64,000 bases of DNA from Armatimonadota bacterium (GCA_025060455.1 JANXBY010000066.1:1-64000); one strand, 5' to 3'. Positions 22,361 through 47,074 are shown, counted from the stretch's first letter. Notes: generated from the letters alone by a model not told the origin. Made by a program: numbers and translations.

Positions 22361-22687
22361 GTGGAAGCCGACACCCGTGTCTACCGTGTGGGCACCGCCC
22401 CGGTGCTCCGTGTAGTGCGGGGGCCGGGGGAGGGGAAGGCGGTGGTGCTGGGGGACGGTGGGGTGACCATCGGCCGCGGGCACGCCTGCGACCTCGTCCT
22501 GCCAGACCCCTTGGTGTCCCGAGTGCACGCGCGGGTAGAGCGTGGCCCCCGCGGTACCGAAGTGGTGGACCTGGGCTCCACCAACGGGACGTACGTGAAC
22601 GGACGGCGGGTGACCCGCTGCCGGCTGGAACACGGGGACCGGCTCCAGCTGGGCGCGGTGGTGCTGGAGTACCGCGAGGTGCCGTGA
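22361..22687 (+). CDS. FHA-domain protein (intact pThr-binding motif)
   Basis: VTIGRGHACDLVLPDPLVSRVHARVERG...DLGSTNGTYVNGRRV. Confidence 0.9.
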   Translation: MEADTRVYRVGTAPVLRVVRGPGEGKAVVLGDGGVTIGRGHACDLVLPDPLVSRVHARVERGPRGTEVVDLGSTNGTYVNGRRVTRCRLEHGDRLQLGAVVLEYREVP

Positions 22688-23136
22688 ACGAGGCCCTGCA
22701 GGCGCTGCGCTACGCGGTGCTGGCGGCGCTGCTGCTCTTCGTGTACCGGGCGGTGCGCGCGGTCCTGGACGATGTGCGCACCGCGGAGGCCGAAGCACCC
22801 TGGGCGGTGCTCGTGGTGGAGGAGGGTCCGGGGCTGAGCGCGGGCGAAGCGTTCGCGGTGCGCGGCCTAACGGTGGTGGGGCGCGCGGAGGCCAACCAGG
22901 TGGTGGTCCCAGACCCTGAAGTCGCGCTTCAGCACGCCCGGCTGGTGGCCCGGGGTGACAGCTTATGGCTGGAGGACCTGGGCTGTCCCGCGGGCACCTA
23001 CCTGAACGGCCGCCGGCTGGAAGCCCCGGCCCCGGTCCGGCACGGAGACCGCGTGCGCGTGGGCTCGACGGTACTGCGGGTGGTGCAACCCGCACGTCCG
23101 CGAGAACGCCGCGGCGGACGAACGGGTCGTGACTAG
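22684..23136 (+). CDS. Membrane-anchored FHA-like protein with degenerate pThr-binding motif
   Basis: N-terminal TM AVLAALLLFVYRAVRAV; VVGRAEANQVVVPDPEVALQHARLV...EDLGCPAGTYLNGRRL. Confidence 0.85.
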   Translation: MNEALQALRYAVLAALLLFVYRAVRAVLDDVRTAEAEAPWAVLVVEEGPGLSAGEAFAVRGLTVVGRAEANQVVVPDPEVALQHARLVARGDSLWLEDLGCPAGTYLNGRRLEAPAPVRHGDRVRVGSTVLRVVQPARPRERRGGRTGRD

Positions 23137-24364
23137 GCTGCTGTTTGGCAGGTCGGCCCGAGACCCTGTGCCCCTCCTGCGTGCGGACAGCTGGCGGCGG
23201 AGCCTGCGGCTGTACGCGCCGGTGTTCGCGGTGGGAGTGGGAGGGTCGGCGCTGGTGCACTGGAACCGGACTCCCGACGACCCCCCGTGGGCAGTCCTGT
23301 ACGTGGCCGCGGTGCTGCTGGGCTTCCTCGTGGCCCACCGCGTGCTGGACGGTGAAGACCCGATCCTACTGCCCACCACCGCTCTGTTGGTGGCCGTAGG
23401 GCTGGTGATGGTGTTCCGCCTGCAGCCCCACGGGTTGGCCTACCACGCCGCGTGGACGTGCGCGGGGCTTGGGGGGCTTGTGGCTGCTTGCCGGGTCCCA
23501 TCCTGCTTCCGGTGGCCCCAGGCGGCCACGGCGGCCGCGCTGCTCCTGGGCTCCGTGGCGCCTTGGGCGTGGCAGGCGCTACCGGGCGGGTGGCAGCTCG
23601 CCGCAGGGGACCTGGTAACGCAGCTGGGGTCCGAGGTGGCCAAGGTGTGCGTGGTGGTCTGGGCAGCTTCGGAGCTCAAGCACGGACGGATCCGGGGCCC
23701 AGCTGTAGCGGTGTGGGCGACGGCGGTAGCTCTGTGGCTGGTGCGGGGCCAGGTGGCCACCGCGGCGGTGCTGGTGTGGGTGGGCCTGGCGGTGGCGTAC
23801 TGCGCGGGCCCGCCGGTGCGGGCGCTTGCCCTCGTGGCCGGCGGGTTTGTCGTGCTGGCGGGGCTGGTGCACGCCAGCTTCCCTCACCTGGTGGATCGGG
23901 TGGCGGGGTGGGCCAACCCATGGGCCGACCCCATGGGCGCGGGCTACCCCTTGGTCCAGAGCCTGTTCGCGGTCGCTGCGGGCGGGCTAGTGGGTTCCGG
24001 GCCAGGCGCAGGCTACCCCGAGCTGGTCCCGGAGGCCCACACGAGCCAGACGCTGGCCGCGGTGGCGGAGGAGTGGGGGTTTGTGGGCGTGGTGGGGCTG
24101 GTGTGCGCATACGCCGTGTGGGTGGGAAGGATGCTGCGCCTAGCGGTCCGGGCTCGCCGGATCTGGTCGCGGTGGGCAGCGGTGGGGGCTGCTTCCCTAG
24201 TGGCTGGCCAGGTGTTCCTGTCCGGCGCTGGGTGTACGGGCCTCCTGCCGCACACCGAGGCCGCTCTCCCGTTCGTGAGCACAGTCGGTGTGTCCGTGGC
24301 CGGCTACCTGATCCTGCTGGGCGTGGTAGTCGGGAGCGGACAGGTGGAGGAGGGGGGCGGGTGA
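23129..24364 (+). CDS. SEDS-family (RodA/FtsW-type) protein, apparently lacking the catalytic Asp
   Basis: Multi-TM; WANPWADPMGAGYPLVQSLFAVAAGGLVGSGPGAGYPELVPEAHTSQTLAAVAEEWGFVG. Confidence 0.88.
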   Translation: MTRLLFGRSARDPVPLLRADSWRRSLRLYAPVFAVGVGGSALVHWNRTPDDPPWAVLYVAAVLLGFLVAHRVLDGEDPILLPTTALLVAVGLVMVFRLQPHGLAYHAAWTCAGLGGLVAACRVPSCFRWPQAATAAALLLGSVAPWAWQALPGGWQLAAGDLVTQLGSEVAKVCVVVWAASELKHGRIRGPAVAVWATAVALWLVRGQVATAAVLVWVGLAVAYCAGPPVRALALVAGGFVVLAGLVHASFPHLVDRVAGWANPWADPMGAGYPLVQSLFAVAAGGLVGSGPGAGYPELVPEAHTSQTLAAVAEEWGFVGVVGLVCAYAVWVGRMLRLAVRARRIWSRWAAVGAASLVAGQVFLSGAGCTGLLPHTEAALPFVSTVGVSVAGYLILLGVVVGSGQVEEGGG

Positions 24365-25662
24365 GCCGACGGGTTGTCCACCTGGCCCGTACGTACCTGA
24401 CCCTCCTGGCCCTTCTGGCGGTGTGGGCGGGCTACTGGCAAGTGGTGCGGGATCCGGACCTGGCACGGCACCCGGCCAACCCACGGCTGGTCCTCGCGGA
24501 GGAGCGAATCCACCGCGGCCGCATCCTGGATCGCCACCTGGGCGTGCTCGCGGAGACCGTCCGCCGCGGTAGCCGCACCGTGCGGACCTACCCGGAGGGA
24601 GAGGTGTTCGCCCACCCGGTAGGGTACCGCAGCCTTTTGCTGGGCAAGGCGGGCCTGGAGGCGGGGGTGGACGCCCACCTGTTGGGAGTGGGCCAGCTCG
24701 GGCCGTGGCAGGGCTTGCGCGTGCGGGGGGACAGGCCGCGCAGGGGCTTCGACGTCGTGACGACGCTGGATCGCGAGGTGCAGCGGGCCGCCTGGTCCGC
24801 GCTGGGCGCACGGGCGGGCGCGGTGGTGGTGATGGAGGTCGGAGGGGCGATCCTGGCTTCCGCCAGCCGCCCCAGCTACAACCCCAACCGCCTCGAGGAG
24901 ACCTGGGCCGAGCTGCGGTGGTCGACCGGCTCGCCCCTCTTGGACCGTGCTACAAACGGCCTCTACCCCCCCGGACGCCCGTTCGGCGTGGTGGTGCTGA
25001 GTGCGGCGCTCAGCCGCGGGCTGATCACCCTGGACAGCCCCTTGGACTGCCCGGGCTCTCAACGCGGCCGCCTTGCCAGGGAGATCCTGGCGGGAGCTTG
25101 CGACCACGCCCTCGCGAGCCTCGGCCGCCTCCTCGGCGGCCGGGTTCTGTGGGAGACCGCGCGGGCGTTCGGTTTCGGGAAAGCCCCCACATCCGAGTTG
25201 CCGGTCGCAGACGGCGAGCTGCCGGAGCCTGAGGCTGACCCGGCACAGCTGGACCGCGTCAGCTCCGGGAGAGGGGGGGTGCTGGCCTCGCCCCTGCAGA
25301 TGGCTGCAGCGGCTGCCACCGTGGGCCGCGGAGGGGAGCGCGTGCAGCCGTACTTCGTGCTCGCGTTGCGGGACGAAGCCGGCGCGGTGGCTAAAAGACC
25401 CGCCCCGCCTGCGGCCCGGATCCTGGCCCCCGAGGTGGCGGCCGCGGTGCAGGAAGCTCTGCGGGCGTCTGGAACCCCACAGGTGGCGGCCGTGGCGGAC
25501 ACGGTGCGCGCCGGCGGCCTGCCCGTGGGTTGGTTTGTGGGCCTGGCACCCGCGCGGAGGCCCAAGGTGGTCGTGGCGGTGGTGGTGGAGGGGGAGGGCG
25601 AGGAGGTAGCCGCGGTGATGGCCCAGAAGGTGCTGCCGGTGGCCCTGCGCGTGATACCGTAG
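24361..25662 (+). CDS. PBP2/PbpA-type penicillin-binding protein homologue lacking SxxK/SxN/KTG
   Basis: N-terminal TM, RGRILDRHLGVLAET, YPPGRPFGVVVLSAAL, PLQMAAAAATVGRGG, GWFVGLAPA. Confidence 0.85.
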   Translation: MSRRVVHLARTYLTLLALLAVWAGYWQVVRDPDLARHPANPRLVLAEERIHRGRILDRHLGVLAETVRRGSRTVRTYPEGEVFAHPVGYRSLLLGKAGLEAGVDAHLLGVGQLGPWQGLRVRGDRPRRGFDVVTTLDREVQRAAWSALGARAGAVVVMEVGGAILASASRPSYNPNRLEETWAELRWSTGSPLLDRATNGLYPPGRPFGVVVLSAALSRGLITLDSPLDCPGSQRGRLAREILAGACDHALASLGRLLGGRVLWETARAFGFGKAPTSELPVADGELPEPEADPAQLDRVSSGRGGVLASPLQMAAAAATVGRGGERVQPYFVLALRDEAGAVAKRPAPPAARILAPEVAAAVQEALRASGTPQVAAVADTVRAGGLPVGWFVGLAPARRPKVVVAVVVEGEGEEVAAVMAQKVLPVALRVIP

Positions 25663-25684: not shown

Positions 25685-27601
25685 GTGGCGGTGGCTTCCG
25701 GATCGGTGCTGGCAGGGCGGTACGAGCTGGTGGAGACCATCGGCCAGGGCGGAATGGCCGTGGTGTACCGGGCCCGCCGGCTTTCCGACGGCAAGGTGGT
25801 GGCGGTGAAGGTACTGCGGGAGCCGTACCGCCACGACCGGGAGTTCGTGGAGCGGTTCGAGCGGGAGGCACAGGCCGCCGCCTCCCTGGCGCACCCCAAC
25901 GTGGTGGCGGTGCTAGACAGCGGAGAGGATGGCGGGGTGCGGTTCCTCGTGATGGAGTACGTGGAGGGAGAAGACCTCAAGACGCTGTTGCGGAAGTCAG
26001 GCCCGCTCCCTCCCGCCCGGGCCGCGGCGGTGGCCGCCGCGGTGTGTGACGCCCTGGAGTATGCCCACGCCCGGGGGATCGTCCACCGGGACATAAAGCC
26101 CCAGAACATCCTGCTGACCCCCACCGGCCAGGTGAAGGTCACAGACTTTGGCATCGCGCGGGCCCTCAGCTCGGCCACCATCACGGAGACGGGCACGGTG
26201 CTGGGCTCGGTCCACTACCTGGCTCCGGAGCAGGCAAAGGGGGAGCCGGCCACCGCCGCCTCCGACGTGTACGCCCTGGGCGTGGTGCTGTACGAGATGC
26301 TCACCGGCCGGCTGCCCTTCGACGGCGAGTCGCCCATTGCGGTGGTGCTCAAGCACCTGTACGAGGAGCCTCCGCCGGTGCGCCAGGTGAACCCCGCGGC
26401 GCCGGAGTGGCTGGAGGCCGTCGTGCACCGGGCGCTGGCGAAACGCCCCGAGGAGCGGTACCCGTCCGTGGCCCACATGCGCGCGGACCTCGAGGGCCGC
26501 GCCGAGTACTGGCGGCACGGCCCGACGGTGGTGTTGCCGCAGCCCGTGCCGCGGCGCCGGTGGCGGGCGCCGTCGGCGGCGGTGGTGGCCGCGGTGCTGC
26601 TGGTGGCGTTGGCCTCCGGCATGGTGGCGGCGTGGCGGGCCCTGCAGGCGTACGTCAACGTAGGGGAGGTGACCGTGCCGGACTTTCGAGGCCAGCCGTT
26701 CACCCAGGCTCAGGCGGCGGCCGCGGGGCTCCGGTTGCAACTGGTGGTGGCGGGCCGGCAGTACCACGACCGCTACCCGCCGGACGCGGTGGTGGACCAG
26801 GACCCGCCTCCGGGGCAGAAGGTGAGGGAAGGCCGGTGGGTGTCCGTGGTGCTCAGCCAGGGTGCCCAACGCGTGCTCGTTCCGGACGTGACCCGCAGGC
26901 CCCTGTCGGAGGTCACCCTCCTGCTGGAGCAGAACCGGCTGCGGGTGGGCACAGTGAAAGAAGACTTCGACGACGAGGTACCCCGCGGCGCCGTGGTCTC
27001 GCAGGAACCCGCGCCGGGTACGCAGGTGGCCCGGGGCACCCCGGTGCACCTGGTGGTGAGCAAGGGCCCGGAGCTGGTGACCGTACCGGGGCTGGTGGGC
27101 CTGAGCCTGGCGCAGGCCCGGGAGGTACTGCACCGCGTGGGGTTGAGCCTGGACCGGGTGGGCTACGTGGCGCGGGCGGACCTGCCCGAGGGAGTGGTGG
27201 TAGAGCAGTCCCCACCGGCGGGAACTCAGGTGCGCCGCACGCAAAAGCTCGGGCTGGTAGTGGCGGTGCGGCCTCAAACGCCACCCAGCCCTCCCGCCTG
27301 GGCGACCCCGTGGCCCGGCCCACAACCCGCCGCACCCCCTGCGCTGCCCTCTCCGCCGGCGGTCCAGGCCACCACGGAGCCCACAGGTGGCGCGGTGCGG
27401 CGCGTCCGACTGGATGTGACCTTGCCGCCCGGGGAGCCGGGGGAAGTCCGGATCGTGGTGATCGACAACCGGGGCGTGCGGGTGGTGTACCGCCAGGTGC
27501 ACGACCCGGGCGAGCGCGTGGTGCAGACGGTGGACGTCGAAGGGTACGCCATCGTGCAGGTTTACTTCGGCGGCCGGTTCATCCAGGAGGTGCGGCCGTG
27601 A
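25685..27601 (+). CDS. pknB: Ser/Thr protein kinase with TM segment and three PASTA repeats (PknB/PrkC-type)
   Basis: VAVKVL, HRDIKPQNILL, DFGIA, APEQ; PASTA repeats beginning VPDFRGQPF, VPDVTRRPL, VPGLVGLSL. Confidence 0.95.
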   Translation: MAVASGSVLAGRYELVETIGQGGMAVVYRARRLSDGKVVAVKVLREPYRHDREFVERFEREAQAAASLAHPNVVAVLDSGEDGGVRFLVMEYVEGEDLKTLLRKSGPLPPARAAAVAAAVCDALEYAHARGIVHRDIKPQNILLTPTGQVKVTDFGIARALSSATITETGTVLGSVHYLAPEQAKGEPATAASDVYALGVVLYEMLTGRLPFDGESPIAVVLKHLYEEPPPVRQVNPAAPEWLEAVVHRALAKRPEERYPSVAHMRADLEGRAEYWRHGPTVVLPQPVPRRRWRAPSAAVVAAVLLVALASGMVAAWRALQAYVNVGEVTVPDFRGQPFTQAQAAAAGLRLQLVVAGRQYHDRYPPDAVVDQDPPPGQKVREGRWVSVVLSQGAQRVLVPDVTRRPLSEVTLLLEQNRLRVGTVKEDFDDEVPRGAVVSQEPAPGTQVARGTPVHLVVSKGPELVTVPGLVGLSLAQAREVLHRVGLSLDRVGYVARADLPEGVVVEQSPPAGTQVRRTQKLGLVVAVRPQTPPSPPAWATPWPGPQPAAPPALPSPPAVQATTEPTGGAVRRVRLDVTLPPGEPGEVRIVVIDNRGVRVVYRQVHDPGERVVQTVDVEGYAIVQVYFGGRFIQEVRP

Positions 27602-37515: not shown

Positions 37516-38385
37516 GTGCCGGTCCTGGTGGACGCCGTCCTGCGCTGGCTGGAACCCCGGCCGGGCGGCGTGTACGTGGACGCCACGGTGGGGGCCGGTG
37601 GGCACGCGGAGCGGATCCTGGAGGCGTGCGCGCCCACAGGCCGCCTGGTGGGGATTGACCGGGACCCCCAGGCTCTGGAGGCGGCCCGGGAACGCCTGTC
37701 CCGCTTCCACGGGCGGGTGCAGCTGGTGCGCGGCAACTTCGCGGACCTCCAGGCGCTGCTGAGGGAGCTGGGCGTGCGGGTTGCAGACGGAGTGCTGTTC
37801 GACCTGGGCGTGTCCAGCCTGCAGCTGCAACATCCGGAGCGCGGCTTCAGCTTCCAGCTGGAAGGGCCTCTGGACATGCGCATGGACCCTGCGCAGCCCC
37901 AGACGGCGGCGGACCTGGTGAACCGCCTGTCCGAGCCGGAGCTGGCGGAGCTGCTGCGCCGCTATGGGGAGGAGCCCTTCGCGCGCCGCATCGCTCGCTC
38001 GATCGTGCGCCGGCGGCCCCTGAGGACCACCACGGAGCTGGTGGAAGCGGTGCAGGCAGCAGTCCCCCGGAGCCGCTGGCCCCGCCGCACACACGTGGCG
38101 ACCCGGACCTTCCAGGCCCTCCGCATTGCCACCAACCGGGAGCTGGAGGCCCTCCAGACGGCTTTGGACGAGGTGCCGGAGGTGCTGCGCCCGGGCGGCC
38201 GCGTGGTGGTGATCGCCTTCCACTCCTTGGAGGACCGGCTGGTGAAGCAGGCGTTCAGGAGTGACCCCCGTCTGCGCCCCCTCCTGCGCAAGCCCGTGCG
38301 GCCAACGCCGGAAGAACTCTCCGCAAACCCGCGCGCCCGGAGCGCGCGGCTGAGAGCCGCCGAGCGGGTGGAGGCGGTGAGTTGA
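37516..38385 (+). CDS. rsmH: 16S rRNA (cytosine-N4)-methyltransferase RsmH (start uncertain)
   Basis: HVPVLVDAVLRWL, DATVGAGGHAERIL, FDLGVSSLQLQHPERGFSF, IAFHSLEDRLVK. Confidence 0.93.
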   Translation: MPVLVDAVLRWLEPRPGGVYVDATVGAGGHAERILEACAPTGRLVGIDRDPQALEAARERLSRFHGRVQLVRGNFADLQALLRELGVRVADGVLFDLGVSSLQLQHPERGFSFQLEGPLDMRMDPAQPQTAADLVNRLSEPELAELLRRYGEEPFARRIARSIVRRRPLRTTTELVEAVQAAVPRSRWPRRTHVATRTFQALRIATNRELEALQTALDEVPEVLRPGGRVVVIAFHSLEDRLVKQAFRSDPRLRPLLRKPVRPTPEELSANPRARSARLRAAERVEAVS

Positions 38386-38849
38386 TCGCGGCGCACCGCA
38401 GGCACCGCACCTACCCCGTCATCCTGCCGGAGGAGTCGGTTGTTGTTGCGCCACACCGCCGGCCCCGGCGCGCCCACCCGCTGGCGCGGGGCCTTGTGTT
38501 GCTGACCCTGTTCGGAGCTCCCCTGCTGGGCCATGTGTGGCTGGAAAGCCAGGCCGCCCAGGCGGGCTACCGGTTGCGGGCGCTGCGCCAGGAGGTCGCG
38601 CAGCTGGAACGGGAGCGGGAAGCCCTACGCAGCCAGGCCGCGGCCCTGCGTTCGCCCGACCGACTGGAACGCCTGGCTGCCCGCTGGGGCCTGAAGCCTC
38701 CGAGTCCGGACCAGCTGGCCGCCGTGGTAGTGCCCGGGGACCTAGTGAGCCGGCCTGCTGTAGCTTCCGCACCGCCCCCATGGTGGGAGCGGCTCGCACG
38801 GTTCCTGCACGACACCGCCGCCGTCGCCGCGGAGCGGCCGCGCCCATGA
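38382..38849 (+). CDS. ftsL: FtsL-like cell-division protein
   Basis: Position between rsmH and ftsI; one TM plus short coiled coil; divergent sequence. Confidence 0.7.
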   Translation: MIAAHRRHRTYPVILPEESVVVAPHRRPRRAHPLARGLVLLTLFGAPLLGHVWLESQAAQAGYRLRALRQEVAQLEREREALRSQAAALRSPDRLERLAARWGLKPPSPDQLAAVVVPGDLVSRPAVASAPPPWWERLARFLHDTAAVAAERPRP

Positions 38850-40612
38850 AGCGAGCCGCCTTGCCCCCGCGGGGACCGCGGAGCGGGGCCCCGCAGGTCC
38901 TGGCCCTTCCCCGGTGGAGGCTCAAGTGGCTGGCCGCCGGCTGGCTCGTGGCCCTGGCCACCGTCGCCGCAAGGGTGGCGTACCTGCAGACCCCCAGGTT
39001 CGACCACCTCCGGGAGCTGGGTCGCCGTCAGCAGGTGGAGACAGTGACGCTTTCAGGTTCCCGGGGCAGGATCTACGACCGCGCAGGCCGCGAGCTGGCG
39101 AGCAACGTGATCCGCGACTCTGTATACGCGGTGCCGCGTGCGATCCGGGACCCGGAGGGGTTCGCGCGGAAAGTGGGACCCCTGCTCGGGCTGGAGCCGT
39201 CCGCGGTGGTGGAGCGGGTGCGCCGGGGCGGCTACTTCGTGTGGCTGGCGCGCCAGGTGAGCCCTGAAGTGGCCGGCCGGCTGCGGCAGCTGGGCCTGGA
39301 GCAGGAGCTGGGCTTCGAGCCGGAGGAAAAACGGGTCTACCCCTTCGGGCGTCTTGCGGGCCCCGTGCTCGGGTTCACCGGGGTGGACAACCAGGGGCTC
39401 GCGGGCCTGGAGCTGCGCTACGAACAGGCCCTGCGGGGCCGGCCCGGGCGCGCCATCCGGGTGCGGGACGCGTTCGGTCGGGAGATCCTCGAGGGGCGGC
39501 AGGTACTTTTGCAGCCCCGCAGGGGCCAGGATTTGGTGCTGGCGCTGGACAGCGTGGTGCAGCACGTGGCGGAGCGGGAACTTGTGCGGACCGTGGAGCA
39601 CTACCGCGCGCAGGGCGGAGCCGCGGTGGCCATGGACGTCCGCACGGGCGAGGTGCTGGCCCTAGCCAGCGTCCCGGGGTTCGATCCGAACTCCGTCCCC
39701 GACGGGACGGAGGCCTGGCGCAACCGAGCCCTGGAGGCGTACGAACCCGGATCCACCCTGAAGGCGGCGGTGCTGGCCGCGGCCCTGGAAGAAGGCGTGG
39801 TGGACGCGGGCTGGAAGGTCACCTGCCCGGGCTGGCTGCGGATCCCGGGCGGCTACACCGTGCGCGAGGCGCACGGGGAGGCCCACGGCCGCGTGGGGAT
39901 CGCGGACGTGGTGCGGCTTTCGTGCAACGTGGCCGCCGCGCGGGTGGGTGCGGAGCTCGGACCGGCCCGCCTGCACCGCTACCTCCGGCAGTTCGGGTTC
40001 GGCGAGCCCACCGGGGTCGATCTGCCCGGTGAATCCGCGGGCATCCTGCGGGACCCGTCGCAGTGGTCCGGCAGCGACCCATACGTGCTGGCCATCGGTC
40101 AGGGTGTGGCCGTTACCCCTCTGCAGCTGGTGCGGTTTGTGGCCGCGGTGGCCAACGGTGGATGGTTGGTGAGGCCGCGCGTGGCGGTGGCCATGCGGGA
40201 TCCCGAAGGAGGCCTGCGGCGCGTGGCCGCGGACGAGCGGGTCCGGGTGCTTTCGCCCCGGGTGGCCCATACGCTTTTGCTGGCCATGGAGCGGACGGTC
40301 GCCGACGGCACCGGGACCGCGGCAGCGGTCCAGGGCTACCGGGTGGCGGGTAAGACGGGCACCGCCCAGAAGCCCTCTCCCCACGGCGGCTACCAGCCCG
40401 GCCGGTACGTGGCCTCGTTCGTGGGCGTGGTGCCGGTAGACCAACCCCGGCTGGCCATCGCGGTGGTGGTGGACGAGCCGCAGGGGGCGTACTACGGCGG
40501 TGTGGTGGCCGCGCCCGCGTTCAGCCGGATTGCTTCTCAGGCCCTGTGGGTGCTGGGCGTGCCGCCGGGGGAGGTGGCCCCACAGGCGGTGCGGCGGCCC
40601 GGCGGGGACTGA
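38846..40612 (+). CDS. ftsI: FtsI/PBP3 peptidoglycan transpeptidase (catalytic motifs intact)
   Basis: YEPGSTLKAAVLAAAL (SxxK), LSCNVAAARVG (SxN), VAGKTGTAQKP (KTG). Confidence 0.96.
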   Translation: MKRAALPPRGPRSGAPQVLALPRWRLKWLAAGWLVALATVAARVAYLQTPRFDHLRELGRRQQVETVTLSGSRGRIYDRAGRELASNVIRDSVYAVPRAIRDPEGFARKVGPLLGLEPSAVVERVRRGGYFVWLARQVSPEVAGRLRQLGLEQELGFEPEEKRVYPFGRLAGPVLGFTGVDNQGLAGLELRYEQALRGRPGRAIRVRDAFGREILEGRQVLLQPRRGQDLVLALDSVVQHVAERELVRTVEHYRAQGGAAVAMDVRTGEVLALASVPGFDPNSVPDGTEAWRNRALEAYEPGSTLKAAVLAAALEEGVVDAGWKVTCPGWLRIPGGYTVREAHGEAHGRVGIADVVRLSCNVAAARVGAELGPARLHRYLRQFGFGEPTGVDLPGESAGILRDPSQWSGSDPYVLAIGQGVAVTPLQLVRFVAAVANGGWLVRPRVAVAMRDPEGGLRRVAADERVRVLSPRVAHTLLLAMERTVADGTGTAAAVQGYRVAGKTGTAQKPSPHGGYQPGRYVASFVGVVPVDQPRLAIAVVVDEPQGAYYGGVVAAPAFSRIASQALWVLGVPPGEVAPQAVRRPGGD

Positions 40613-44432: not shown

Positions 44433-45896
44433 GTGGATGGGCGGGTCGGCTGGAGGCCGCGTCCGGTGCACCACCCCGCGGTGGAAGCCCTGCGCGGCCG
44501 TCGCGTGCACGTGCTGGGCATCAGCGGCACCGAGGGGTCCGCGGTGGCGGAGTTCCTCCTGGCGCAGGGCGTGGAGCCCACCTGCCACGACCTGCAGACC
44601 CCGGAGGAGTTCCCGGAGGTGTTCCACCGCACCCACCGCTGGATGCCCGCGGAGGAGCGGGAGGAGCGGGTGCGGTGGTGGCTAGAACAGCCCGTGCGCT
44701 GGGGGCCCCGCTACCTGGAGGGGATCGAGGACGCGGAGGTGGTGTTCCTACCGCAGGCGTGGTTCCGTAGGCCGGAGAACGCCCGCCTGAAAGAGCTGCT
44801 GGCCCGGGGACTGCAGGCCTCCAGCCTCACCCAGCTGGTGCTGGACCTGGCCCCCTGTCCCGTGGTGGGGGTGACGGGGACCAACGGCAAGTTCACCGTG
44901 GTCACCCTGGTGCAGCGCATCCTGGAGGTCTCGGGTCTGCGGGCGTATGCCAGCGGCAACGACCGTAGCCACGTCCCTGCTCTGTACTTCCTGCACGAGC
45001 TGCGGCCGGAGGACCGGCTGGTGCTGGAGGTCAGCAACCGGCAGCTGCTGGGCGTCCGGCGCAGCCCTTCTGTGGCGGTGCTCACCAACGTCACGCCCCA
45101 CCACCTCGACGACCACGGCAGCTTCGAGGCGTACGCGGAGTGCAAGGCTCGGATCTTCCTCTACCAGGGGCCGGGCGACGTGCTGGTGGCCAACCAGGAC
45201 GACCCGGTGGCGTGGCGGCTGGCCGCCCGCGCGCCCTCCCGGGTGGTGCCGTTCGGGCGGGCGGCGTATGGGGGCGCGTGGGTGGACGGGGCGTGGATCC
45301 GGTGGTCGGACGAGCGGGTGGTGTCCCGGTGGGAGCTAAAGGTGCCCGGTTCCCACGCGCTTCTGAACGCCCTGGCTGCGTGCGCGGCCGCCGGGGTGGC
45401 GGGCGGCTCGGTGCAGGCCATGGCCCAGGTGCTGCGGGAGTTCCGGGGCCTGCCGCACCGGCTGTGGCTGGTGGACGAGGTGCAGGGCGTGCGGTTTTTC
45501 GAGGACTCCCTGGCCACCAACCCCGCGGCTGCGGCGGCAGCGGTGGAGGCCATGGACCGGCCCTTCGTGCTCATCGCGGGGGGCCGCAGGCCCAACGCCA
45601 CCCCCGAGGACTTCCGGCCCGTGCGCGAGGCGCTGGTCCGCAGCCCCGTGCGGGCGGTGTACCTCATCGGGGAGTGTGCGCCGGTCCTGTGGGACGCGCT
45701 GCGGGGCCTGCCCGCGGAGGTGGTGGAGGTCCGTACCCTGGCGCAGGCGTTCCGGCGCGCGGTGCAGCTCGCCAGGCCCGGGGAAGCGGTGTTGCTGTCG
45801 CCGGGGTGTGAGTCCTTCGACCAGTTCACGGACTATCGGGAGCGCGCGGAGGTTTTCACCGCCCTGGTAGCGCAACACAGGAGGCGGGCGGGATGA
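44433..45896 (+). CDS. murD: UDP-MurNAc-L-alanine--D-glutamate ligase MurD, divergent
   Basis: VTGTNGKFTVVTLV, TNVTPHHLDDHGSFEAY, DSLATNPAAAAAAVEAM, LSPGCESFDQFTDY. Confidence 0.88.
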   Translation: MDGRVGWRPRPVHHPAVEALRGRRVHVLGISGTEGSAVAEFLLAQGVEPTCHDLQTPEEFPEVFHRTHRWMPAEEREERVRWWLEQPVRWGPRYLEGIEDAEVVFLPQAWFRRPENARLKELLARGLQASSLTQLVLDLAPCPVVGVTGTNGKFTVVTLVQRILEVSGLRAYASGNDRSHVPALYFLHELRPEDRLVLEVSNRQLLGVRRSPSVAVLTNVTPHHLDDHGSFEAYAECKARIFLYQGPGDVLVANQDDPVAWRLAARAPSRVVPFGRAAYGGAWVDGAWIRWSDERVVSRWELKVPGSHALLNALAACAAAGVAGGSVQAMAQVLREFRGLPHRLWLVDEVQGVRFFEDSLATNPAAAAAAVEAMDRPFVLIAGGRRPNATPEDFRPVREALVRSPVRAVYLIGECAPVLWDALRGLPAEVVEVRTLAQAFRRAVQLARPGEAVLLSPGCESFDQFTDYRERAEVFTALVAQHRRRAG

Positions 45897-47074
45897 CCCG
45901 GCCCAGCCCCCCGCAGGAGATCCGGCGTGGTCCAGTGGACGGGTGGCTGGTGGCCAGCGTGTTGGGGCTGTGCGGGGTCGGCCTGGTGATGGTCTACAGC
46001 GCCAGCTCCGTGGCGGGCTTTGAGCGCTTCGGGGACGCCAGCTACTTCCTCAAGCGGCAGCTGGCCTGGTTCACCCTCGGGTGCGGCTGCATGGTGCTCA
46101 CCTCCCGGGTGCACTACACCGCGTGGCGCAGACTCGCGGCACCGCTCGTGGTGGCCTCCCTGCTGTTGTTGGGCGCGGTCCTGGTGCCCGGCATCGGAGA
46201 CGTGGCCGGCGGGGCGCGGCGGTGGATCTCCGCAGGTCCGGTGAACTTCCAACCCGTGGAGGTGGCCAAGTTCAGCTTGGTGGCCTACCTCGCCCACTTC
46301 CTCGCCAACCGGCGCGACCAGGTCCGCTCCCTGACCAGGGGTGTGTTGCCGCCCCTGGGGTTCGCCGGGGCCATGGCCGTGTTGGTGCTGCGGCAGCCGG
46401 ACATGGGCAGTGCGGTGGTGCTGGTAGGGATCGCGGCCGCGGTGCTGTTCTGCGCGGGCGCGCGCCTGCACCACCTGGGTGGGCTCGCGGTGGTGGCGGC
46501 TCCTGCCGCGGCGTGGGCCGCCCTGGCGGAACCGTACCGCAGGGAAAGGATCCTGGCGTTTTTGGACCCTTGGCGAGACGCCCAGGGCAGTGGCTTTCAC
46601 GTGATCCAGTCCCTGGTGGCGGTGGCTTCCGGCGGCCTGGTGGGGGTCGGGCTGGGCCAAAGCCGCCAGAAGTTCTTCTACCTGCCGGAGCGCCACACGG
46701 ACTTCATCTTCGCCATCCTGGCGGAGGAGCTGGGGTTGGCGGGGGTGGTGGTGGTAGTGGGCCTGTACGCGGTGTTGGTGGCCCGCATTTACCGAGCCGC
46801 CCTACGGGCCCCTGACCGCTACGGAGCCCTCCTGGCATCTGGTTTCGGAGCGTGGGTGGCGGGCCAGGCGGTCCTGAACCTGGGGGTGGCCACGGGGCTG
46901 CTGCCGGTCACCGGGGTCCCGCTGCCGTTCGTGAGCTTCGGCGGGTCCTCGCTGGTGTCGCTGATGGCGGCCGCGGGCGTGTGCATGAACCTTTCCCAGT
47001 ACGCGCGGGCCGTGCGGGAGGCGGACGTGTTCAGCGCGTGGGCGTCTTCGCCCGCGAGGGAGAGAGCTCCTTGA
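45893..47074 (+). CDS. ftsW: FtsW SEDS peptidoglycan polymerase (catalytic motif intact)
   Basis: YLPERHTDFIFAILAEELGLAG; TGVPLPFVSFGGSSL. Confidence 0.95.
   Translation: MTRPSPPQEIRRGPVDGWLVASVLGLCGVGLVMVYSASSVAGFERFGDASYFLKRQLAWFTLGCGCMVLTSRVHYTAWRRLAAPLVVASLLLLGAVLVPGIGDVAGGARRWISAGPVNFQPVEVAKFSLVAYLAHFLANRRDQVRSLTRGVLPPLGFAGAMAVLVLRQPDMGSAVVLVGIAAAVLFCAGARLHHLGGLAVVAAPAAAWAALAEPYRRERILAFLDPWRDAQGSGFHVIQSLVAVASGGLVGVGLGQSRQKFFYLPERHTDFIFAILAEELGLAGVVVVVGLYAVLVARIYRAALRAPDRYGALLASGFGAWVAGQAVLNLGVATGLLPVTGVPLPFVSFGGSSLVSLMAAAGVCMNLSQYARAVREADVFSAWASSPARERAP

Follow-up and report, generated by a model that had tools for sequence, protein, structure and literature searches.

Why would a genome keep three adjacent genes, each open over its full length, whose products lack the residues by which their families act? 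The question is raised by a locus of an Armatimonadota bacterium (genome G000, 2.26 Mb, 95% complete) that lies within positions 1-64000 of contig 8, the 64,000-nucleotide stretch that was analysed and is here called the window. Five ORFs on the + strand encode two FHA proteins (FHA1 and FHA2), a SEDS protein, a PBP and a PASTA kinase; the frames overlap by 4-8 bases, with a 22-base gap 5' of the kinase. These ORFs, and two controls from the same window, are as follows.

22361..22687, + strand: FHA1, an intact FHA protein (GR, SRxH and STNGT present), context (PF00498, E=7e-23)
22684..23136, + strand: FHA2, an N-terminal TM anchor and an FHA domain without the pThr-contacting Ser and Asn (PF00498, E=3e-16)
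23129..24364, + strand: pseudo-SEDS, RodA-type of the pbpA operon (FTSW_RODA_SPOVE, PF01098, E=7e-40)
24361..25662, + strand: pseudo-PBP, a PbpA-type class B PBP with TM, pedestal and transpeptidase fold retained (Transpeptidase, PF00905, E=5e-25)
25685..27601, + strand: PASTA Ser/Thr kinase of the PknB/PrkC type, context (PknB_PASTA_kin, NF033483, 582 bits)
38381..40609, + strand: canonical FtsI open frame, intact control, the true start lying inside the frame (STLK, SCN, KTG)
45812..47071, + strand: canonical FtsW open frame, intact control (HTDFIFAILAEE, SFGGSS)

The family assignment of the proteins at the locus is secure. The PBP also matches PBP_dimer_2 (PF21922, E=5e-7), which identifies it as PbpA-type, and the kinase has three PASTA domains, with VAVK, HRD and DFG all present in each of the four congeners compared below. 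The SEDS protein of the operon carries approximately 60 additional N-terminal residues (window 23129-23350), which make up two helices outside the part that aligns to solved FtsW and RodA.

Loss of catalytic and binding motifs

A preliminary description of this DNA had held that FHA2, SEDS and PBP each lack the residues that define their families, and ORF calls, profiles and motif alignment bear this out. The SEDS motif of the window is EAHTSQTLAAVAEE, with STVGVS where SYGGS would be expected; the catalytic Asp of HTD that characterises the class (D262 of E. coli RodA) is replaced by Ser306, and the equivalents of R48, R109 and D159 are gone, that of R210 (R257) being present. The PBP has none of the motifs of a class B PBP, reading RPFG (within PPGRPFG) in place of SxxK, ACD in place of SxN and RAG in place of KTG; with all three missing, it would be expected that a serine acyl enzyme cannot form. 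FHA2 reads VALQHA and CPAGT. Of the residues that make up a phosphothreonine-binding FHA domain (GR, SxxH, NGT), the Ser and the Asn are gone from all four congeners, so that the earlier claim stands for these two, but the Arg of GR and the His are still in place.

The proteins that had been named as intact in the same window, FHA1 (VSRVHA, STNGT), FtsW and FtsI, do indeed have complete motifs. Furthermore, canonical RodA, PBP2 and MreC are encoded, intact, on contig 42 of the source genome; taken with FtsW and FtsI in the window, this gives the genome both of the standard SEDS-PBP pairs in intact form.

Distribution and order of loss

Four species of the genus were compared, namely G000 (the window), G001, G002 (bacterium HR32), which is the more distant, and G003; the named congener records are JAVKKH010000006.1 (Armatimonadota bacterium), BEII01000011.1 (bacterium HR32, not classified further by NCBI) and CALIMJ010000019.1 (uncultured bacterium). 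The order RlmN-FHA-FHA-SEDS-PBP-kinase is conserved in the window and 14 relatives, and these 14 share the wider arrangement of Fmt, zinc protease, RsmB, RlmN, FHA1, FHA2, SEDS, PBP, kinase, Rpe and HDAC, excepting genes that are undetected (RlmN in L047) or that fall at a contig end (as in L051). The SxxK, SxN and KTG of the PBP and the Ser and Asn of FHA2 are gone in all four species, and the catalytic Asp of SEDS in three of the four. G001 and G003, which are independent assemblies, show losses in all three proteins: HAG for HTD in SEDS; RPFG, DCD for SCN and no KTG in the PBP; and neither Ser nor Asn in FHA2. The third congener, G002, shows them in the PBP (ITFR, PCD, no KTG) and FHA2 only; its SEDS protein retains HTD (as HTDL) and GGS (as SYGGS), though the PL2/PSExxK region of this protein shows erosion: PSExxK has lost its E and K, and the RQW loop is gone. 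Whether the substitutions are fixed had been put forward as a check; they are, across the genus, for the PBP and FHA2, and in three of four species for the SEDS Asp.

In the core tree G002 branches off first within the genus and G000 next, leaving G001 and G003 as the closest pair. Since the Asn of SxN has become Asp in all four species, parsimony would place the death of the PBP and of FHA2 in their common ancestor. The loss is therefore, as far as alignment and tree tell, stepwise, with the PBP and FHA2 first and the SEDS Asp later. A coordinated loss had been proposed at the outset, and three adjacent proteins are indeed affected; the events were not simultaneous, however, as the SEDS protein of G002 still has HTD and GGS.

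The 11 copies from sister lineages are all intact; they come from sister genera within the family (G004-G006) and from relatives at the level of the order. The Ser and Asn motifs of FHA1 are intact in 15 of 15 aligned copies, and the Ser and Asn of FHA2 are present in the sister genera and the order-level relatives. Intact orthologues in close relatives had been named as a sign of local error or recent decay; such orthologues were found, in the sister genera, but rather than indicating either of these they date the loss to the level of the genus. An error of sequencing or assembly, or a misread frame, might be suspected, given that these are draft assemblies and that at least two of the congeners are metagenome-assembled genomes. 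Against this, independent assemblies share the losses and the full-length ORFs can be aligned from end to end, and error is thereby rendered so improbable that it can be ruled out.

In a survey of 43 genomes of the class, the pair is found in 15 (the PBP being intact in 11 and dead in 4) and a PASTA kinase match in 41. The third SEDS-PBP pair is missing from 28 of the 43 (within G007-G042), nearly all of which have a PASTA kinase. Because the kinase is kept in nearly all class members without the pair, the pair is not required for the kinase in general, and because most of the class manages in this way the pair may be slowly disappearing. No further dead pairs outside the genus were detected among named genome records, within a survey that covered the 80 loci with the highest scores in a single pattern scan and scored PBP motifs by a crude regular expression. 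Among the records of other phyla in these best 80 loci, the SEDS Asp is missing only from the congener loci L057 and L059; L094, L097 and L103 gave no match to the expression, yet the Asp is present when they are read by eye.

Selection on the dead proteins

dN/dS was calculated pairwise by the Nei-Gojobori method and branch lengths were taken on a fixed topology. Between G001 and G003, dN/dS is 0.22 for SEDS, 0.28 for the PBP and 0.14 for FHA2, a range of 0.14-0.28 that answers in the affirmative the proposed check of a ratio below 1. The catalytic controls in the same comparison give 0.31 (FtsI), 0.25 (RodA) and 0.16 (FtsW), and for the intact sister pair G004/G006 the values are 0.28 (SEDS) and 0.15 (PBP); between G000 and G001 the ratio for SEDS is 0.46. 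Under neutrality, SEDS or the PBP should have gathered 4-11 stop codons in the G001/G003 comparison and 17-30 in that of G000 with G001; none was observed. Purifying selection, seen in both the ratios and the missing stops, makes repurposing a better explanation than decay, which is the view that the preliminary description had taken.

The branch lengths tell of a less even history. Measured against the kinase, SEDS has branches in the genus that are longer by a factor of 3-4 (2.5 in G002) and the PBP by a factor of approximately 2, whereas in the sister genera both are similar to the kinase. The fast branches indicate that constraint on SEDS and the PBP was loosened or redirected during their conversion and then persisted; given its fast evolution, relaxation is probably a part of the history of SEDS.

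Conserved columns and predicted structure

For the PBP, 61 columns that are conserved in 32 intact homologues were used as the reference. None of the 8 catalytic columns is common to all four dead copies, compared with 38 of the 53 others (Fisher p=1.7e-4), and the loss of catalytic columns therefore exceeds chance. The best-conserved stretch between G000 and G001 is the former SxxK helix (window 24961-25026, residues 201-222), where 20 of 22 residues (91%) are identical; this helix is equally conserved among active homologues. For SEDS, 27 of 47 conserved columns are retained in all four species, and three of the four have neither the Asp nor the GGS region, nor the equivalent of the cavity B residue Arg48. 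R257, which aligns with R210 of E. coli RodA, is invariant, dead copies included; the residue equivalences were read off motif positions and involve no structural superposition. R210 is the pyrophosphate-binding Arg of cavity A, the residue roles being taken from PMC10449877. ECL4 and TM8 are among the best-preserved regions of SEDS (67-71% between G000 and G001) and TM3/PL2, which lies close to the substrate cavities, is the least preserved (33%). The ECL4/TM8 region flanks the PBP contacts known from RodA-PBP2, and its conservation may reflect preservation of the interface.

The SEDS protein retains the fold and profile of its family, and the PBP its TM anchor, pedestal/dimerisation region and transpeptidase fold. 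The AF2 models, each made with an alignment rich in active homologues, are of high confidence, with a pLDDT of 86 for SEDS, with FtsW/RodA structures as the best PDB matches in Foldseek (8bh1, 8tj3, 6pl6), and of 90 for the PBP, with PbpA-type structures as the best PDB matches (4r1g, 3upn).

Discussion

The active sites are gone and fold and frame are under purifying selection, as in a pseudoenzyme that is under selection; it is very likely that the pair is both dead and maintained. What it is maintained for is less certain. The PBP is implausible as a transpeptidase and the catalytic Asp is missing from three of the four SEDS proteins; their maintenance therefore calls for a non-catalytic role. 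The reading considered best, and on balance a probable one, is that the RodA-PbpA pair of an ancestral operon has become a dead yet maintained membrane complex, acting as a scaffold or tuner under the kinase; for the scaffold or tuner role taken by itself the odds are about even. The starting point would be an ancestral FHA-FHA-(PP2C)-SEDS-PbpA-PASTA kinase operon, which corresponds to the mycobacterial module fhaA/fhaB-pstP-rodA-pbpA-pknB. Catalysis would be left to the intact FtsW-FtsI and RodA-PBP2, and the dead SEDS and dead PBP would still bind each other; together with the membrane-anchored FHA2, the pair could then position active synthase complexes, compete with them or tune them, whether as a scaffold or as an allosteric partner. 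The complex would be controlled by the co-encoded PASTA kinase, with the phospho-signal now perhaps read by FHA1 and not by FHA2. That the pThr site of FHA2 was lost along with the enzymes, FHA1 and the kinase both remaining intact, hints at a function of FHA2 dedicated to the pair. A scaffold or tuner is favoured by analogy, since SEDS-PBP complexes operate by allostery between the partners (PMC10257715) and a catalytically inactive PBP 2B of B. subtilis is still needed structurally, building the division complex (PMC5656894).

The acceleration of the SEDS and PBP branches is compatible with partial relaxation and counts against a scaffold. It raises the alternative of slow pseudogenisation, in which the pair, redundant beside RodA-PBP2, would have lost its active sites under relaxed selection, with the frames shielded by operon position and recency. 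The absence of the pair from 28 of 43 class genomes, the accelerated branches and the SEDS ratio of 0.46 between G000 and G001 would all fit; the ratios of 0.14-0.28 between G001 and G003, the 0 stops where 4-30 were expected, the overlapping full-length ORFs in four species and the loss of catalytic columns far beyond that of others do not. Simple decay is thus disfavoured by dN/dS and the missing stops, and the small probability that it keeps is owed to the acceleration in rate.

Alternatively, the pair may have been wholly converted to a receptor for lipid II or peptidoglycan, in which the cavity A Arg and the PBP groove bind lipid II or a muropeptide, and a shift in the complex modulates signalling through the PASTA kinase. 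This would account for the invariance of R257 even in dead copies (the role of R210 being known from PMC10449877), for the 91% identity of the SxxK helix region between G000 and G001 despite the loss of the motif residues, and for the genetic coupling of the pair to the kinase. However, cavity B no longer has its Arg48 equivalent, PL2 is lost in part, the SxxK helix is as conserved in active homologues, and the operon is the sole link of the pair to a kinase that related genomes use without it; we regard such a sensor as unlikely. Some activity might also remain: the SEDS protein, at least in G002 with its HTDL and SYGGS, could polymerise glycan with the transpeptidase-dead PBP as its allosteric activator, crosslinking being left to other PBPs. 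Yet even in G002 the RQW loop is missing and PSExxK is without its E and K, whose mutation in SpoVE severely affects sporulation (PMC10449877), and the remaining three species are entirely without the catalytic Asp, so that residual activity seems quite unlikely. The maintained, non-catalytic complex is therefore the reading that we retain.

SEDS-PBP pairs are core growth machines of bacteria and targets of antibiotics, and the usual way to ask if they have structural or regulatory roles apart from catalysis is to engineer inactive mutants; in this genus evolution has done that experiment. Step by step, a complete pair lost catalysis along with its FHA partner, yet selection has continued to act on it for no less time than the genus has existed, and the residues that are still conserved indicate non-catalytic surfaces. 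Searches of the open-licence literature for pseudo-SEDS, inactive SEDS, pseudo-PBP and PBP pseudoenzymes returned no description of a paired pseudo-SEDS and pseudo-PBP, in agreement with the novelty suggested in the preliminary description. The wall module itself is already known; a naturally dead SEDS-PBP pair is undescribed, as far as the open literature shows.

Several known systems resemble parts of the locus. CwlM is an inactive amidase homologue. In mycobacteria CwlM, with FhaA, and the pseudokinase domain on MurJ (MviN) belong to the PknB pathway that controls wall synthesis (PMC6180346), but their folds are unrelated to those of the window pair and neither is a dead synthase pair. The inactive B. 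subtilis PBP 2B (PMC5656894) is likewise a class B PBP, and its structural role does not depend on catalysis, as is proposed for the window PBP; it is an engineered point mutant, whereas the window PBP is a natural pseudoenzyme. PbpA (M. tuberculosis 3UN7/3LO7; Atopobium 4R1G) shares fold and domain layout with the window PBP, which, unlike PbpA, is without SxxK, SxN and KTG. With RodA/FtsW (6PL5, 8TJ3, 8BH1) the window SEDS shares the core fold, a conserved ECL4 and the cavity A Arg and adds the two N-terminal helices; unlike in those proteins, the Asp and GGS are gone in three of four species, the fourth having both but not the PL2/PSExxK residues.

The actinobacterial operon fhaA-fhaB-pstP-rodA-pbpA-pknA-pknB (e.g. 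Mycobacterium; PMC6554272, PMC11898655) has the same families in a similar order, and relatives of the window have a PP2C at the same position. It differs in that the active or binding sites of SEDS, PBP and FHA2 are dead in the window and in that no PP2C was found in the genus. The PP2C phosphatase is present at the G005 and G036 loci; the four congeners and G004 gave no PP2C match, and their kinase thus seems to be without its usual phosphatase. In relatives, a PP2C-type phosphatase lies between FHA2 and SEDS (L041, 4951-6030, + strand; L044, 8373-9974, - strand). One order-level relative (genome G026) has SEDS and PBP in a single open frame of 1098 aa (L047, 4638-7931, - strand), apparently a natural SEDS-PBP fusion in which the PBP motifs are intact.
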